This document shows, piece by piece, positions 14,956 through 27,136 of a stretch of 52,228 bases of DNA. Position 1 is the first letter of the stretch. Every line of letters starts with the position of its first letter. Source of the stretch: Gammaproteobacteria bacterium (GTDB lineage: Bacteria; Pseudomonadota; Gammaproteobacteria; Steroidobacterales; Steroidobacteraceae). The stretch is taken from contig JAIBJM010000022.1 of NCBI GenBank assembly GCA_020029535.1, forward strand, positions 1 to 52,228, given 5' to 3'. The notes under the pieces are model-generated. The model was not told the DNA's origin. It did no database searches and was given only the letters and a program-made list of their open reading frames with translations. The translations under genes were made by a program, and so were the position numbers.

Positions 14956-17900
14956 TCAAGCCGATTCGGATTCGGCCTGGTTCTCTTCTTCGGGCGCCGG
15001 CGGCAGGATCAGCCGGCCCTTGCCATATTGAAGCAGTTGCACGAATTCCCGCGACGAGACTGCCTTGCTGTGCAGGTTGCCCTGTGACTGGTCGCAGGCC
15101 ATCTGCCAGAGGAAGTCCAGCTGTTCCTGGGTTTCGACGCCCTCGGCCACCGTGGTCATGCCGAAGCCGCGCGCCAGCGTGATGATGGTCTTGACCAGGA
15201 TCTTGCCCTGGGTGTCCTGCGGCACCTGCATGACGAAGGCGCGATCGATCTTCAGCGTATCGATGGGCAGTACGGCCAGTCGCGACAGCGACGAATAGCC
15301 GGTGCCGAAATCGTCGATGGCGATGCGCACGCCGTTGCTGCGCAACAGCTTCAGCTTTCTGACATCGGCCGCCGAATCCTCCTGCAACGCGCCTTCGGTG
15401 ATTTCGATATCCAGGCCCGAGCGCGCCGTCGACCAGCCCTCGGTGATGCGCAGGAAACTGGCGGCGAAGTCGGGCAGCCGCAGCTGCTGCGGAGAGATGT
15501 TGACGGCGATGCGCATCGGCGGCAGGCCCTCGCGCAACCATTGCTGACAGTCGGCTGCCGCCTGCTGGAGGATCCAGTCACTGACATCGAGGATCAGTCC
15601 ACTTGCTTCCAGCACTGGCAGGAACACGCCGGGAGCGACCAGCCCTGACTCGGGATCGCGCCAGCGCACCAGCGCCTCGACGCCCTCGATACGGCGCGTA
15701 ATGACATTGACCTTGGGCTGGTAATGCAGCTCGTATTCGCGCCGTTCCAGCGCCAGCCGCAGTTTGTGTTCCAGTGCCAGCCGACCCACCATCTCGGTGT
15801 GCTTCTGTGCGCTGTAGTGCAGTTGGCGTTCGCCGCTGACGCGCGCGTTGCGCAGCGCCGTCTCGGCATTCTGCACCAGCGTGTTGGCATCGTTGCCGTC
15901 TTCCGGATAGATCGCGAAACCGGTGCGTACCGCAATCGGCAATTGCCGCCCTTCGATGACGAAGGGCTCGTTCAGTAATACAGCAATCTGTTCGCGCGCG
16001 CGCGTCTGCCATTCGTCGGATGACTGATTGCCGATGTCGTATGCAATGCCGAAGGTGCCGCCGCCGAAGTGTGCCAGCTGTTCGGTATGCGGGAGGCGTC
16101 GTTTCAAGCGGTCGGCGACATGCTGTAGCAGCAGGTCGCCGGTGCGCCTGCCGAATGAGTCGTTGATGACGCTGAGCTGCTCGACGTCGATGATGGCTAC
16201 CATATGATGGTTGCGATGTCCGGCCGGACTGCCGATCAGACGGGCGATGCGCTCGACAAACAGCGATCGCTTGGCCAGGCCGGTCTGTGGATCGAAGTGC
16301 GACAGGAAGCGCACCCGCGTGTCCTTGCTCAGATATTGCAGCGCGAATGACAGATTGCCGGCCACCTCGCGCAGCATGTGCAGTTCCTCGTCGCCGACTG
16401 CTTCGGAGTCGCGCGCCGTCAGCAGCAGCACGCCTACCGGTGTGTCGTCGACCAGCAGCGGCAGGGCCGCCAGCGCATGTTGCCCGGTCGCCAACAGCAG
16501 CCGGCTGAAGGTGGCGGTGCCTTCCAGCTGCTGCGTGTTCTTGCAGATATAGGCTTGCCCGGTCTTCAGCACGCGGCCGACGATGCTGGTGTCGCGGGTG
16601 CCGGCGTCGGTGACTGCGGCACGCAGCGGTTCGGCCGTCTTGTCGTCGATGGCGCTCCAGATCACCGGCTGCAGTGTTGGCGAGCCGGGCGTCTTCCAGC
16701 AGGCGATGGCGGCGGTGTATCCACCCACACTGACGGCCAGCCGGCAGGTCTCCTGCAGCAGCTCGCTGCGGTCGCGGATTCGCACCACCAGGCTGTTGAC
16801 GCCGCTCAGCATGCGCAGCACGCGGTTCAGGCGCGCGATCTGCGCCTCCTGGCGTCGGTGCTCGCGCCGTATTTCTGCTTCTTCCTGTGCGCGCTGCACC
16901 GCCGGGGCCAGCCGGCGCAGGTTGCTCTTCAGTACATAGTCGGTGGCACCGCAGCGCAGTGCTTCAATGGCGCGCTCTTCGCCGATGGTGCCGGAGACGA
17001 AGATGAATGGAACGTCGGGCGCCGTCTCGCGCGCAATGGCCAGCGCCGACATGCCGTCGAACTGCGGCAGCGTGAAGTCCGAGAGGATCACATCGGGCGC
17101 GAAGGTGGCCAGCGCGTGGCGCAATTCTGCTTCGGTTTCGACGCGCTTCGCGACGCAGTGGACCCCGAACAGCTTGTCCGCGTATTTCATGTCGAACCCG
17201 ACGCCATTGTCCTTGACGAAGTACACGCGTTTCGATGGGCCGCCGGCCACATCCGGCTGCTGGTAACTTCCGACTTCTATCCGGGCCACCGGCTGTCGGC
17301 GCGTGAACTTGACGGCATTGGACAGCAGGTTCAGCAACACCTGCTCCAGCAGCGAGGCATCGCCACGGCATTCGGGCAGTGGCTGGATCGCAAACTCGAG
17401 CTTGCGGTCCGGCTCCGCGTTGCCCAGTTCCCGCGCGATGCGCTTCGCCATGGTGTCGAGCTGGATCGGCTGACGCTCCAGCGGTGCGCGACTGAAGCGG
17501 CAGAAAGTCAGCAGGTCTTCGATCAGCTGGTCCATGCGCTTGACGCCGCCGACCACGCGGTTGAGATGGCTGCGGCCCTCGTCGGTCAGCGTGTCGCCGT
17601 ATTCCTCGAGGAAGATCTCGGTGAAGCCGCGGATCGACAGCAGCGGCGAACGCAGATCGTGCGAGACCGAATACGAGAAGGACTCCATATCCTTGTAGGC
17701 TGCCGCCAACTCGGCGGCATGCTCGTGCTCGCGTTGCTGCAGGGCGGCGTTTTCGAGGCGCAGATTGCGGATGTCCAGCGCGCGCGCGATGACGGTGAGG
17801 ATTACATTGAGCTTGAAGGGCTTCAGCACATAGTCGAGTGCGCCCACCTGCATGGCCGCCACCGCCGTGTCGATGGTGCCGTGGCCGGTCATTACGATGC

Positions 17901-18129
17901 CGGCAATCTGCGGGTCCACATTGCGGGCCTTGCGGATCAGCTCGATGCCGTCGATGTCGGGCATCATCAGGTCGGTCAGCAGCAAATCGTGCTCGCCCGG
18001 GCGCAGGTTGCGCAGTGCCTCGCCTGCCGAACTGTAGCCGGTGGCCTTGAAACCCTCGTACTCCAGCGTATGACACAGCGCCTGCATCTGCGCCGTTTCG
18101 TCATCGACCACCAGCAGCCGGGCGCTCAT
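14956..18129 (-). CDS. Receiver-kinase-receiver-GAF-GGDEF-EAL signalling protein with internal fusion
   Basis: A 1057-residue cytoplasmic protein. In order: receiver (1-120, phospho-acceptor Asp53), histidine kinase helix (His157 in SVSHDLRSP), ATPase domain (about 240-322), second receiver (about 328-415, Asp351 in LSDF), GAF (about 450-600), GGDEF-like (about 605-775) and EAL (about 785-1040). The cyclase motif is GGGTF, so synthesis of cyclic-di-GMP is unlikely. The EAL domain keeps EAL (818-820), NIS, EITE, DDFGTGYSS, KIDR and AEGVE, so it probably degrades cyclic-di-GMP. At residues 323-328 the ATPase stops after its G1 box and runs directly into the second receiver, which lacks its first strand and acidic pair. 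Its start overlaps the hybrid kinase gene by 4 nt. Confidence 0.88.
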   Translation of the reverse strand: MSARLLVVDDETAQMQALCHTLEYEGFKATGYSSAGEALRNLRPGEHDLLLTDLMMPDIDGIELIRKARNVDPQIAGIVMTGHGTIDTAVAAMQVGALDYVLKPFKLNVILTVIARALDIRNLRLENAALQQREHEHAAELAAAYKDMESFSYSVSHDLRSPLLSIRGFTEIFLEEYGDTLTDEGRSHLNRVVGGVKRMDQLIEDLLTFCRFSRAPLERQPIQLDTMAKRIARELGNAEPDRKLEFAIQPLPECRGDASLLEQVLLNLLSNAVKFTRRQPVARIEVGSYQQPDVAGGPSKRVYFVKDNGVGFDMKYADKLFGVHCVAKRVETEAELRHALATFAPDVILSDFTLPQFDGMSALAIARETAPDVPFIFVSGTIGEERAIEALRCGATDYVLKSNLRRLAPAVQRAQEEAEIRREHRRQEAQIARLNRVLRMLSGVNSLVVRIRDRSELLQETCRLAVSVGGYTAAIACWKTPGSPTLQPVIWSAIDDKTAEPLRAAVTDAGTRDTSIVGRVLKTGQAYICKNTQQLEGTATFSRLLLATGQHALAALPLLVDDTPVGVLLLTARDSEAVGDEELHMLREVAGNLSFALQYLSKDTRVRFLSHFDPQTGLAKRSLFVERIARLIGSPAGHRNHHMVAIIDVEQLSVINDSFGRRTGDLLLQHVADRLKRRLPHTEQLAHFGGGTFGIAYDIGNQSSDEWQTRAREQIAVLLNEPFVIEGRQLPIAVRTGFAIYPEDGNDANTLVQNAETALRNARVSGERQLHYSAQKHTEMVGRLALEHKLRLALERREYELHYQPKVNVITRRIEGVEALVRWRDPESGLVAPGVFLPVLEASGLILDVSDWILQQAAADCQQWLREGLPPMRIAVNISPQQLRLPDFAASFLRITEGWSTARSGLDIEITEGALQEDSAADVRKLKLLRSNGVRIAIDDFGTGYSSLSRLAVLPIDTLKIDRAFVMQVPQDTQGKILVKTIITLARGFGMTTVAEGVETQEQLDFLWQMACDQSQGNLHSKAVSSREFVQLLQYGKGRLILPPAPEEENQAESESA

Positions 18130-20555
18130 GCGCGCACCTGGTCCGTAATGACCGTTTCGGTGTCGGCGTTTCTGCCGCAGAACTCGGCCAGTACGGCGCG
18201 CAGTTCCGGCATGCGCGGGGGCTTGCTCAACACCCGGTTGACATGCGGGGGCACGTCATTCTCGGCAATCATGCGTTGGCCCCAGCCGGTCAGCATGATT
18301 ACCGGCGTGGCGGGCGCGCCCGCCTTGATGGCCGCGGCGACCCGGCGCCCATCAACATGCGGCATGCCCAGATCGGTGATCACCACATCGAACGGCTTGC
18401 GTTGCCGGACAGCGGCTGCGAAGGCATCGATGCCGGCCTGTCCGCCGTTGGCGGCCACCACCTGGTGACCGTCTGTACTCAGCACGTCTTCCAGCGAGCG
18501 GATCAGCATCGGGTCATCGTCAACGAGCAGGATGCGCAGGCGCCGTACCGTGACCGGGAAGGCGCTGGGGAGACCTGCAATCGCCACGCTGCTGTTCGCC
18601 GGTGCGAACACCAGACGCATGCGCGTGCCGCGTCCCGCCTCGCTGTCGATCTCCAGCTCGGCGCTGTGTCGCTGCACCGTGCCGTACACCATGGCCAGGC
18701 CCAGTCCGCTGCCGCGCTCGCCCTTGGTGGTGAAGAATGGCTCCAGGCAGCGGCGCCGGGTGGCCTCGTCCATACCGATGCCGCTGTCGCCAACCTCGAT
18801 CCAGCTGCGATGGCCTTCACTGCCGGTGCGCAGCGTCAGCACACCGCCGTCCGGCATGGCGTCGACCGCGTTGAATATGAGGTTGGTCAATGCATCGCGG
18901 ATCTCGCCTTCGGCGGCCATCACCTCTACCGGCGCGCTGTGCAGGGCGGACTGCAGTTCGATCATCACGCCACGCTGCTGGGGCAGGGCGCTCCAGCGCG
19001 CGTGCGTCAGTTCCAGCGCCTGCTGCGCCAGCCGGTTCAGATCGACCCGCGTCAGTGTCAGCTGCTGTTCGCGCTGACGGTAGAACTCGCGCATGCGCGC
19101 CACCGTGCCCGCCACGTCATCGATGGCGCGCTGTATGGTGGTCAGGTAGCCGCGCGCCCGCTCGCTGAGATTGGGCTCGCGCTCCAGCAGCGATTCGGTG
19201 TACAGCGACACTGGCGAGATCGCGTTGTTGATGTCGTGCGCGATGCCGCTGGCCATCTGTCCGAGGGCCCGCAGCCGCTCCTGCTGCATCACAGTCTGCT
19301 GCGACTGGCGCAGATCGTCATAGGCCTGCTGCAGGGCGCTGTTGAGCTGGGCCTGCCGCGACGCCAGCGCCACATGCTCGCTGAGCTGCTTGAGGAATTC
19401 ACAGTCAGCACTGGAAAAGGCCTGGCTTGAGCTGCGCGCGGCGATCAGCACGCCATGACAGCTGTTTTCGGCATTCAAAGGCGCCATGACCACGGAGCGC
19501 AATCCGGCCGCGGCCAGGCATTGCGTCATCGGAAAGGGCACCGCCAGGGTGTCCGGCTCGTGAATCAGTCGGCCGGCGACACAGTCTTCCAGCCCGTTGC
19601 CAGCAGCCGGCAGCCGCGTGCCTTCGGCCAGGCCCAGCGGTCCGGCGTGACGCGCGCTGGTGGCACCCACGGTGGTTACGGTGAGTTCGGCGCTGTCGGC
19701 GTCGTACTGGCAGATGCAGCCGAAGTCGATCGGCAGAGTGGTTTCGACGTTCTGCAATACCACACGGAAAATGCTGGCCAGATCGTGACGGTCACCGATG
19801 GCGCGCGTAATGTGCTGCAGCAGGCTGAGATGTCCCAACTGCATGTGCAGGCGCGCCTCCGACTGCTGAATCTCGGCCAGCATGTGATTGAAGGCCTCGG
19901 TCAGCTGGTTCAGTTCATGGGCATCGGTGGGTGCCGCGCGCACCGAATAGTCGCGGCGCGTGGAAATGGCTGCCGCGGTGCGCGCCAGTTCGAGCACCGG
20001 CTCTGTGATCCGGCGCTGCATCTGTCGCGAGATCACGTAGGCCAGCAGGCCGGCGGCGGCGATCACCAGCGTCACGATGCCACCGTACAGGCGTAGCCGC
20101 GCATCGATGGCGCCCATATCGGCGCGCACGTACAGCGTGCCCAGCCTGCGGCCGCCCTCGACCACCGACTGGATGCCGCTGAGGAATCCCCCGCCAAAAC
20201 CATAGCCGCCGATGGCCGGTGTCCGCTGCGGGAAGGTGCTGGCCGCCAGCCGTGCCGGATAGGTCGCGAACAAATCGCCGTCGCGGTCATAGAGTGCCGC
20301 AGCCACGATATGCGGGTCGGCATCGAAGGCGGTCAGCACGGCGGCGGCGTCGGCGGCATTTTCGAAAGCCAGCGCCGCGGTGCTGTTGGCCGCAATGGCC
20401 TTGCCCAGGATTTCCAGCTGATTGCGGTTCGATTGGCGGAAGGTAAGGAAGTCGTAGATGAACAGCGAGGCAGTGCTCAGCAACAGTACGGCACCGCTGG
20501 TCAGCAGCACCATGCGCATCAATTGTTTACGGATCGGCTGATGGGACGCGCTCAT
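18126..20555 (-). CDS. Membrane hybrid histidine kinase (CHASE8-like, HAMP, GAF, receiver)
   Basis: An 809-residue inner-membrane sensor. TM1 spans about residues 14-36 and TM2 about 157-177, enclosing a periplasmic domain of about 115 residues that resembles the CHASE8 sensor of YfiN. HAMP (about 178-235) and GAF (about 255-405) follow. The HisKA helix has His440 in SGIAHDINN, and the ATPase has Asn562, DSGIG (590-594) and GSGLGL (615-620). A C-terminal receiver has Asp728. All catalytic residues for autophosphorylation are present. It overlaps the YfiR-like gene upstream and the EAL protein downstream by 4 nt each, so the three should work together, with the YfiR-like protein probably controlling the periplasmic domain. 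Confidence 0.9.
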   Translation of the reverse strand: MSASHQPIRKQLMRMVLLTSGAVLLLSTASLFIYDFLTFRQSNRNQLEILGKAIAANSTAALAFENAADAAAVLTAFDADPHIVAAALYDRDGDLFATYPARLAASTFPQRTPAIGGYGFGGGFLSGIQSVVEGGRRLGTLYVRADMGAIDARLRLYGGIVTLVIAAAGLLAYVISRQMQRRITEPVLELARTAAAISTRRDYSVRAAPTDAHELNQLTEAFNHMLAEIQQSEARLHMQLGHLSLLQHITRAIGDRHDLASIFRVVLQNVETTLPIDFGCICQYDADSAELTVTTVGATSARHAGPLGLAEGTRLPAAGNGLEDCVAGRLIHEPDTLAVPFPMTQCLAAAGLRSVVMAPLNAENSCHGVLIAARSSSQAFSSADCEFLKQLSEHVALASRQAQLNSALQQAYDDLRQSQQTVMQQERLRALGQMASGIAHDINNAISPVSLYTESLLEREPNLSERARGYLTTIQRAIDDVAGTVARMREFYRQREQQLTLTRVDLNRLAQQALELTHARWSALPQQRGVMIELQSALHSAPVEVMAAEGEIRDALTNLIFNAVDAMPDGGVLTLRTGSEGHRSWIEVGDSGIGMDEATRRRCLEPFFTTKGERGSGLGLAMVYGTVQRHSAELEIDSEAGRGTRMRLVFAPANSSVAIAGLPSAFPVTVRRLRILLVDDDPMLIRSLEDVLSTDGHQVVAANGGQAGIDAFAAAVRQRKPFDVVITDLGMPHVDGRRVAAAIKAGAPATPVIMLTGWGQRMIAENDVPPHVNRVLSKPPRMPELRAVLAEFCGRNADTETVITDQVRA

Positions 20556-21121
20556 GGGTCGCCTCCCGGGTTGCCGATGATCTGTGCCGGCCGCAACAGC
20601 TTGGAGCTGATGGTCAGGCCGGCCTCACGCGCCGATTCGACGTTGATACGCAGCCGGATGCGGCGGTTCTCATTGATGAAGCCGATGATGGTGTCGGCGG
20701 CGGGCGGGTTGGCGGCATCACTGACTGTCAGCATGCCGCGCCGGTCGAGGAGCCGGCCGGGTGCGGCGAGTTCCGGACGCGCTGAGCGGTCGATGAACAG
20801 GATCTGGCAGGGACGCAGATCGGCGAGATGTCGGTAGCGTTCCACCACCAGCGTGCGTGTGCCCACCGATTCGCCGCGTACGGCTTCCTCCAGCGTGGCG
20901 CCGAAGGGGTCCTCGCCCAGCACGCCGATGACAAAAGGTGCCTGCGGACCCGCAAAGGCGTCGTCGGGCCATTCGACGAACTGCGTGAAGTTGAACAGGA
21001 AGATGGCCTTCAGCTGGTATTCGCCCGGGACGGGCGCAGCCGCCACGCTGCCGAGCACACAGCCCAGCAACAACGCCGCCAGCATCGCGGCCGGCTTGCG
21101 GCGCCGCTTCAGCACCGCCAC
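20552..21121 (-). CDS. YfiR-like periplasmic protein (DUF4154)
   Basis: A 189-residue protein when started at GTG 21121, which puts a signal peptide first (KRRRKPAAMLAALLLG, cleavage near AAAPV). Family features are YQLKAIFLFNFTQFVEWP, GVLGEDPFG, the CQILFIDRS segment and the late strand IGFINENRRIRLRIN. YfiR proteins are periplasmic repressors that bind the sensor domain of membrane signalling enzymes such as the cyclase YfiN. Here the adjacent enzyme is a histidine kinase with a YfiN-like sensor domain, so a YfiR-kinase module is inferred. A longer in-frame reading to 21241 adds an Arg-rich segment that looks non-coding. Confidence 0.85.
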   Translation of the reverse strand: MAVLKRRRKPAAMLAALLLGCVLGSVAAAPVPGEYQLKAIFLFNFTQFVEWPDDAFAGPQAPFVIGVLGEDPFGATLEEAVRGESVGTRTLVVERYRHLADLRPCQILFIDRSARPELAAPGRLLDRRGMLTVSDAANPPAADTIIGFINENRRIRLRINVESAREAGLTISSKLLRPAQIIGNPGGDP

Positions 21122-21481
21122 CGGGGCCCGCCGTAAACGCCGTGCTCTACGCGGGAGGGAACGCGGCTGGCATCGCCCACGATTGCCGACCAGGATTGCG
21201 CAGCGTCGGGGGTCGGTGCCAGCCGCGCATTCGGCGGCCACTCGACATCCAGCGCGAACAGCGAACCGTATGCCCGCGCGGCCCGGCGTCTGCCTCTGAC
21301 TGTGCCGCTGCCTGTAGTGCCCATGCGGTCGTGCCCCCGTTCGATGTATGGCAAAAAATTACCACGCTGGGATATGACAACTCGCGGGTTGATCCGCATT
21401 CCGGCAAACAGAACCGTGAACTGGTTGGCATCTGTCGCTGATTGCGACAGATGATCGCGCATATTGCGGGACTAGGGGAGA
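21122..21481. other. Gene-free stretch between yfiR-like gene and tRNA-Val
   Basis: No convincing gene. The open frames here lack family features and Shine-Dalgarno sites. The stretch holds a perfect 10-bp inverted repeat (21429-21453) and a T6 run on the minus strand near 21350 preceded by only tiny hairpins. It presumably carries the promoter of the minus-strand YfiR-kinase operon, but I cannot place it. Confidence 0.5.
21429..21453 (-). terminator. Perfect 10-bp hairpin downstream of tRNA-Val
   Basis: CATCTGTCGC and GCGACAGATG pair over 10 bp around a 5-nt loop, starting 28 nt past the 3' end of tRNA-Val. It would fold in the tRNA transcript and may end or process it. No T-run follows directly, so intrinsic termination is not certain. 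Confidence 0.45.
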
Positions 21482-21556
21482 TGGTGGACGGTACAGGGAT
21501 TGAACCTGTGACCCCTGCCGTGTGAAAGCAGTGCTCTACCGCTGAGCTAACCGTCC
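21482..21556 (-). tRNA. tRNA-Val (CAC)
   Basis: A full cloverleaf reads on the minus strand: a 7-bp acceptor stem GGACGGT/ACCGTCC, D arm GCTCAGCGGTAGAGC, anticodon loop TTCACAC giving anticodon CAC (codon GUG), T arm with GGTTCAATCC, and an encoded CCA end. The TTCAATC T-loop is normal. Confidence 0.97.
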
Positions 21557-26965: not shown

Positions 26966-27041
<76 letters not shown>

Positions 27042-27060
27042 AGTTTGCACTGGTTGCCGG

Positions 27061-27136
27061 GTCCCCATCGTCTAGAGGCCTAGGACATCACCCTTTCACG
27101 GTGGTAACCGGGGTTCGAATCCCCGTGGGGACGCCA
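27061..27136 (+). tRNA. tRNA-Glu (TTC)
   Basis: A complete cloverleaf 19 nt after tRNA-Ala: acceptor GTCCCCA/TGGGGAC, the CGTCTAGAGGCCTAGGACA D-arm region typical of tRNA-Glu, anticodon loop CTTTCAC (anticodon TTC), T arm CCGGGGTTCGAATCCCCG, and an encoded CCA. It is probably co-transcribed with tRNA-Ala. Confidence 0.98.

Follow-up and report, generated by a model that had tools for sequence, protein, structure and literature searches.

The window, that is, the whole stretch of 52,228 nt that was analysed, contains no N and carries a fused gene on the reverse strand (Table 1). Its single open frame of 1057 amino acids joins parts of a histidine kinase to a receiver and to GAF, GGDEF and EAL domains. 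A hybrid kinase gene lies directly upstream, and a YfiR/HmsC-like gene heads the cluster. The two upstream genes (18126–21241) form a YfiR/CHASE8 pairing ahead of the kinase part. The familiar partner of YfiR is the cyclase YfiN. Genes for tRNA-Val(cac), tRNA-Ala(ggc) and tRNA-Glu(ttc) are located at 21482–21556 and 26966–27136.

Table 1. Features of the fused gene and of the two genes upstream of it. Positions are those of the window, residues those of the fused protein.
Feature	Position	Strand	Description
Fused gene	14956..18129	(-)	REC1-HisKA-HATPase (N-terminal half)-REC2 (without beta1/alpha1)-GAF-GGDEF-EAL
REC1	17788..18114	(-)	residues 6–114 (Pfam); D9/D10, D53, T81 and K103 present
HisKA	17503..17685	(-)	residues 149–209 (Pfam); H157 present
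HATPase_c, N-terminal half	17164..17364	(-)	residues 256–322; profile positions 1–59 of 111
ATPase strand, KRVYFVKD region	17209..17235	(-)	residues 299–307; receiver beta1 in one AlphaFold model, contradicted by a second
Joint	17155..17172	(-)	residues 320–325, LFGV/HC; break between 17161 and 17160
REC2 remainder, from beta2	16840..17160	(-)	presumed phospho-acceptor D351
GAF	16336..16776	(-)	residues 452–598 (Pfam)
GGDEF, degenerate (GGGTF)	15826..16302	(-)	residues 610–768 (Pfam)
EAL	15064..15765	(-)	residues 789–1022 (Pfam, 1.1e-66); presumed catalytic motifs present
Upstream hybrid kinase	18126..20555	(-)	CHASE8-HAMP-GAF-HisKA-HATPase-REC; ATGA overlap with the fused gene
YfiR/HmsC-like (DUF4154) gene	20552..21241	(-)	head of the cluster; start codon uncertain

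The REC1 residues of the table are those to which we assign active-site roles, and H157 is presumably the phospho-acceptor histidine of HisKA. In our naming of the HATPase_c boxes, the N box and G1 are present, and the half with G2 and the lid is gone. The REC2 remainder retains the aspartate D351, a threonine in FVSGTIGE (from residue 377) and a lysine in YVLKSN (from residue 398), which we take to serve the receiver, D351 as phospho-acceptor. All EAL motifs that we regard as catalytic (EALVR, N, ITE, DDFG, K, EGVET and Q) were found in the fused protein. The GGDEF or GGEEF motif of an active diguanylate cyclase is absent from it and reads GGGTF; thus, the EAL domain is the output that remains. 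A degenerate motif (GGGTF or similar) next to a still recognisable EAL domain also occurs in the relatives at loci L041, L044 and L002. Judged by their motifs, proteins of this type look like dedicated phosphodiesterases.

The joint is located between V323 and H324, within the segment 17140–17170. Domain profiles confirmed the original prediction that the G1 region of the ATPase runs in frame straight into a receiver. The predicted absence of the ATPase G2 box and of the first strand and acidic pair of the receiver was borne out as well. Pfam found only the first part of the HATPase_c profile, which is covered from position 1 to 110 and from 2 to 108 in two intact relatives. REC2 matches the Response_reg profile from position 24–25 onward only, and it has lost its original beta1, first helix and acidic pair at the joint. 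The GAF-GGDEF-EAL part is kept in frame, as predicted; the frame stays open and Pfam recognises all three domains. The protein is not a hybrid histidine kinase with a complete kinase core and a complete receiver, as both are cut at the joint. The missing kinase tail, which starts with FQR.H, is present in all 17 relative kinases listed.

Relatives have a gene for a REC-HisKA-HATPase kinase and a separate gene for a REC-GAF-GGDEF-EAL protein. The view that an ATPase domain was spliced into the middle of a receiver had to be given up for a fusion of two genes. Complete, separate genes occur in genomes of the same genus, in line with the expectation that close relatives carry the complete forms. 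In G009, the hybrid kinase is followed by a REC-HisKA-HATPase protein of 402 amino acids, a REC-PAS-GAF-GGDEF-EAL gene (gene 1) and a REC-GAF-GGDEF-EAL gene (gene 2), whose EAL domain was seen partly. The gene order is similar in G006, also of this genus. Kinase and receiver gene are divergent in G223. The loci of G009 and G006 (L178 and L179) have tandem REC…GGDEF-EAL genes after the kinase, the second of which is in the frame of the kinase in both genomes. Across 24 loci, including one of the own genome (L196), kinase and receiver gene follow each other on the same strand in 15, with 266–761 bases between the positions that are joined here. These spacings refer to the nearest receiver, which is only 44–54% identical in L043, L181 and L192. 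The receiver gene is on the opposite strand in four loci, and none was present within the examined stretch, in some cases a short one, in five. Among 17 scanned loci of relatives, several of them too short to show the neighbours, 12 have the hybrid kinase ahead of the kinase, and 8 of these 12 also have the YfiR-like gene. The order of the modules varies among the relatives: same strand, opposite strands or non-adjacent. The own genome has a second pair of a kinase and a REC-GAF-GGDEF-EAL-type protein on opposite strands (L196, contig C79). A relative of gene 1 persists on the same contig.

Other fused forms were searched with 200 residues spanning the joint (joint at query position 123/124). 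The search covered 15 genomes of the genus, 217 of the family, and 396 of the order and 369 of the class, the latter two drawn evenly; these overlapping sets all contain the own genome. Scores were computed for the best candidates of each genome, and results refer to the matches listed. Among these, the query was matched from 1 to 200 in one stretch by the own genome only, in all four sets. The compact joint was hence not found to be common to many species. An end-to-end match would have topped these lists. The other rows were kinase matches ending at query position ~121–146 or receiver matches. The latter mostly start at ~87–141, some reach 75–83, and one reaches 40 through a stop. They extend to the left of the joint since the ATPase residues align with the start of these receivers. 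A conserved compact architecture is not supported by the matches listed; the rows that cross the joint are receiver starts or kinase ends aligned onward. Two candidates, G089:C360 and G088:C145 (with one stop inside), were discarded as fusions; each is a complete receiver closely preceded by a stop. Among frames of at least 250 amino acids in the loci compared, no bridging protein was detected outside the window's own copies, the only ones in which this kinase part is followed by this receiver within 260 amino acids. From these comparisons, the gene looks like a private in-frame fusion. The locus itself is sporadic in the genus, with weak matches only (best E 1e-8 to 1e-5) in 10 of the 14 other genomes. 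No paper on the fused protein was among the matches listed in a literature search.

In the phylogenetic analysis, the C-terminal part formed a group with G223 and the gene-2 rows of G009 and G006 (support 99/99). Its end branch of 0.29 compares with 0.54 for G223 and with 0.46 plus 0.17–0.18 for the gene-2 rows. In the kinase tree, the fused gene lies at an unresolved fork, with an end branch of 0.62 versus 0.41 and 0.95 for two other single rows at that fork. As this placement is not firm, the putative orthology of the N-terminal half rests on synteny and about 53–54% identity. Deviations at conserved columns are few in the N-terminal half (REC1 2/47, HisKA 1/18, ATPase part 1/20; 15 relatives) and in the C-terminal half (REC2 0/39, GAF 1/20, GGDEF 1/36, EAL 2/32; 19 relatives). 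Every domain is within the range of the relatives, with EAL at the top of this range. The lack of excess deviations and the lengths of the end branches suggest that the fused gene is either young or kept.

These observations are probably best explained by a lineage-specific in-frame deletion that fused two genes of a conserved yfiR–hybrid kinase–kinase–phosphodiesterase cluster. We infer that the cell really carries this deletion, from a single example in one assembly of one genome. It would have removed the last ~49–73 codons of the kinase, as counted in relatives, the stop codon and the spacer, and also roughly the first 30–40 codons of the REC-GAF-GGDEF-EAL gene. The size of the missing segment, which was to be taken from full-length homologues, could be narrowed to two estimates that depend on the ancestral gene order. 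The loss would be about 0.27–0.76 kb if the two genes had been direct neighbours, and about 3.1 kb if a REC-PAS-GAF-GGDEF-EAL gene intervened, as in the two same-genus genomes. Between the positions joined here, the distance from kinase to gene 2 is 3117 bases in G009 and 3072 bases in G006, both multiples of three; the corresponding distances to gene 1 (335 and 266 bases) are not. The phase may give a weak hint to the loss of ~3.1 kb. Counting against the deletion, the closest-branching relatives are without a direct same-strand pair, since G009 and G006 have a gene in between and G223 has a divergent arrangement.

The same joint could arise during assembly, if the two genes are in fact separate in this genome and the intervening DNA was lost by the assembler. 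The assembly is a draft of 120 contigs and the genes are separate in relatives, but we consider such an artefact quite improbable. Searched against the assembled DNA, a 21-base left flank gave one other match, with 3 mismatches, and a 27-base pattern covering the right flank gave none. No repeat at the joint was seen in these flank searches. The codon after the joint encodes F in all 17 relative kinases listed, unlike in receivers, and the two also differ in the residues that precede the shared G, so only a few bases can be shared at the joint. Assembler word lengths far exceed a few bases, and the shared sequence would be far too short to mislead an assembler. A collapse of repeats appears unlikely, and a deletion at short homology would fit a joint with so few shared bases better. 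The frame is intact through the joint. Matches to the missing ATPase tail in the own genome are all part of other long open frames, with at best 55–58% identity to the query relative. An intact second copy was not seen in the assembly in searches with the protein and with the missing tail.

A real deletion includes two further readings as sub-cases, and the probabilities of the rivals overlap. The fused gene may be a decaying pseudogene, in which the deletion inactivated both proteins and the frame is still open only because it is young. Both domains at the joint are incomplete and the locus is sporadic in the genus. We nevertheless regard decay as rather unlikely: conserved columns show no surplus of changes in any domain, the C-terminal part has an end branch of 0.29 and the EAL motifs are intact. 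The absence of decay would also fit a very recent event with a product that is perhaps useless. The other sub-case is a receiver repaired by its new neighbour. The stretch that now precedes REC2 (RVYFVKDN…KYADKLFGV, residues 301–323) has nearly the same length and pattern as the lost receiver start. The strand and helix of the ATPase G1 region might thus replace beta1 and alpha1 of REC2, with D307 in the acid pocket, and REC2 would fold and might be phosphorylated; we consider this unlikely. RVYFVKDNGVGFDMKYADKLFGV aligns with a lost receiver start, for example IRILQVEDSETDAELAAHQLKRAGL in gene 2 of G009, with one residue fewer. D307 is at the place of the second acidic residue of the receiver, but K306 replaces the first. 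The ATPase stretch adds +4.7 bits to the score against a family receiver profile, a value reached by 37 of 4000 shuffles. The Pfam profile, however, gains nothing (49.1 vs 49.6 bits), and the score was equalled or exceeded by 217 of 4000 segments of the GAF-GGDEF-EAL parts of relatives, a receiver-free random pool, and by 9 of 91 kinase segments. Against these controls, the gain appears modest.

AlphaFold models of the joint disagree. Residues 285–440 were modelled with the complete (beta-alpha)5 order and strand 299–305 as the first (pTM 0.75), from an alignment that leans to the receiver by receiver rows cut at the joint. The block around the first strand has a pLDDT of 54–72, with a short stretch under 50. 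Foldseek and VIA-align aligned this model to solved receivers from about the first strand (Z 15.3–17.9, 50 matches listed). A model of residues 120–440 (pTM 0.50, pLDDT 52–64 at the joint) has, by its secondary structure, no strand in the beta2 region and places strand 300–307 beside an ATPase strand. Its alignment of 36 kinase and 4 receiver rows leans to the kinase, its row numbers having been adjusted so that kinase and receiver rows aligned to their proper parts. Foldseek matches of this model were histidine kinases mixed with a receiver protein. A loss of REC2 function, as in the predicted loss of normal phosphorylation, is likely but not certain, since the strand from the ATPase may take the place of strand 1 of the receiver. 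That the deletion created a working chimeric receiver, in which the G1 aspartate D307 is reused as the magnesium-site aspartate, seems quite doubtful. If true, one step took the ATPase of the kinase and joined its histidine domain directly to a phosphorylatable phosphodiesterase.

For the deletion product itself, the domains that remain suggest a function. An ATPase without its lid half should have lost self-phosphorylation, as expected from the HATPase family. The product would be without ATP-dependent kinase action and would keep an intact REC1, the HisKA histidine and an intact EAL domain. Most likely, it is a dead kinase with an intact EAL phosphodiesterase, joined to REC1 and a dimerising HisKA domain. 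Control of the phosphodiesterase has most likely passed from its own receiver to REC1 and the upstream hybrid kinase, or simply to enforced dimerisation. The output would then be REC1-driven or constitutive. The simplest remaining function would be a HisKA-dimerised c-di-GMP phosphodiesterase, with REC1 addressed by the overlapping hybrid kinase.

Genes are known to become fused by deletion; what is unusual here is a joint in the middle of domains. Passages of Lind et al. (eLife 2015, PMC4395868) describe in-frame deletions in Pseudomonas fluorescens SBW25 that fuse diguanylate cyclase genes to upstream genes, with activation as a consequence; one of these deletions removed four intervening genes. 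These laboratory fusions of c-di-GMP genes to upstream genes give new phenotypes (PMC4395868). As in SBW25, a c-di-GMP gene is joined in frame to an upstream gene by a deletion. Unlike the laboratory fusions as described there (PMC4395868), whose enzymes make c-di-GMP, the one here is found in a natural genome and combines an EAL protein with a signalling kinase, each of which has a domain cut at the joint. A hybrid histidine kinase in Xanthomonas arose from fused kinase and regulator genes, as told in a passage of PMC8175716. In both cases, cognate kinase and regulator genes become one. The route in Xanthomonas was the loss of a stop codon and read-through (PMC8175716, same passage), whereas half of each joined domain is gone here and a working hybrid kinase is not expected. 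The locus looks like a natural snapshot of a two-gene signalling relay rewired by one deletion, comparable to the laboratory fusions by which c-di-GMP enzymes are activated. Its mid-domain joint poses the question whether a strand of an unrelated alpha/beta fold can substitute for the first strand that a receiver has lost. An undisturbed form of the downstream partner is represented by the REC-GAF-GGDEF-EAL regulator of 780 amino acids in L195. It is homologous to the REC2 remainder, GAF, GGDEF and EAL throughout (56% identity). Unlike the fused gene, it has a receiver from profile position 1 and no kinase part.
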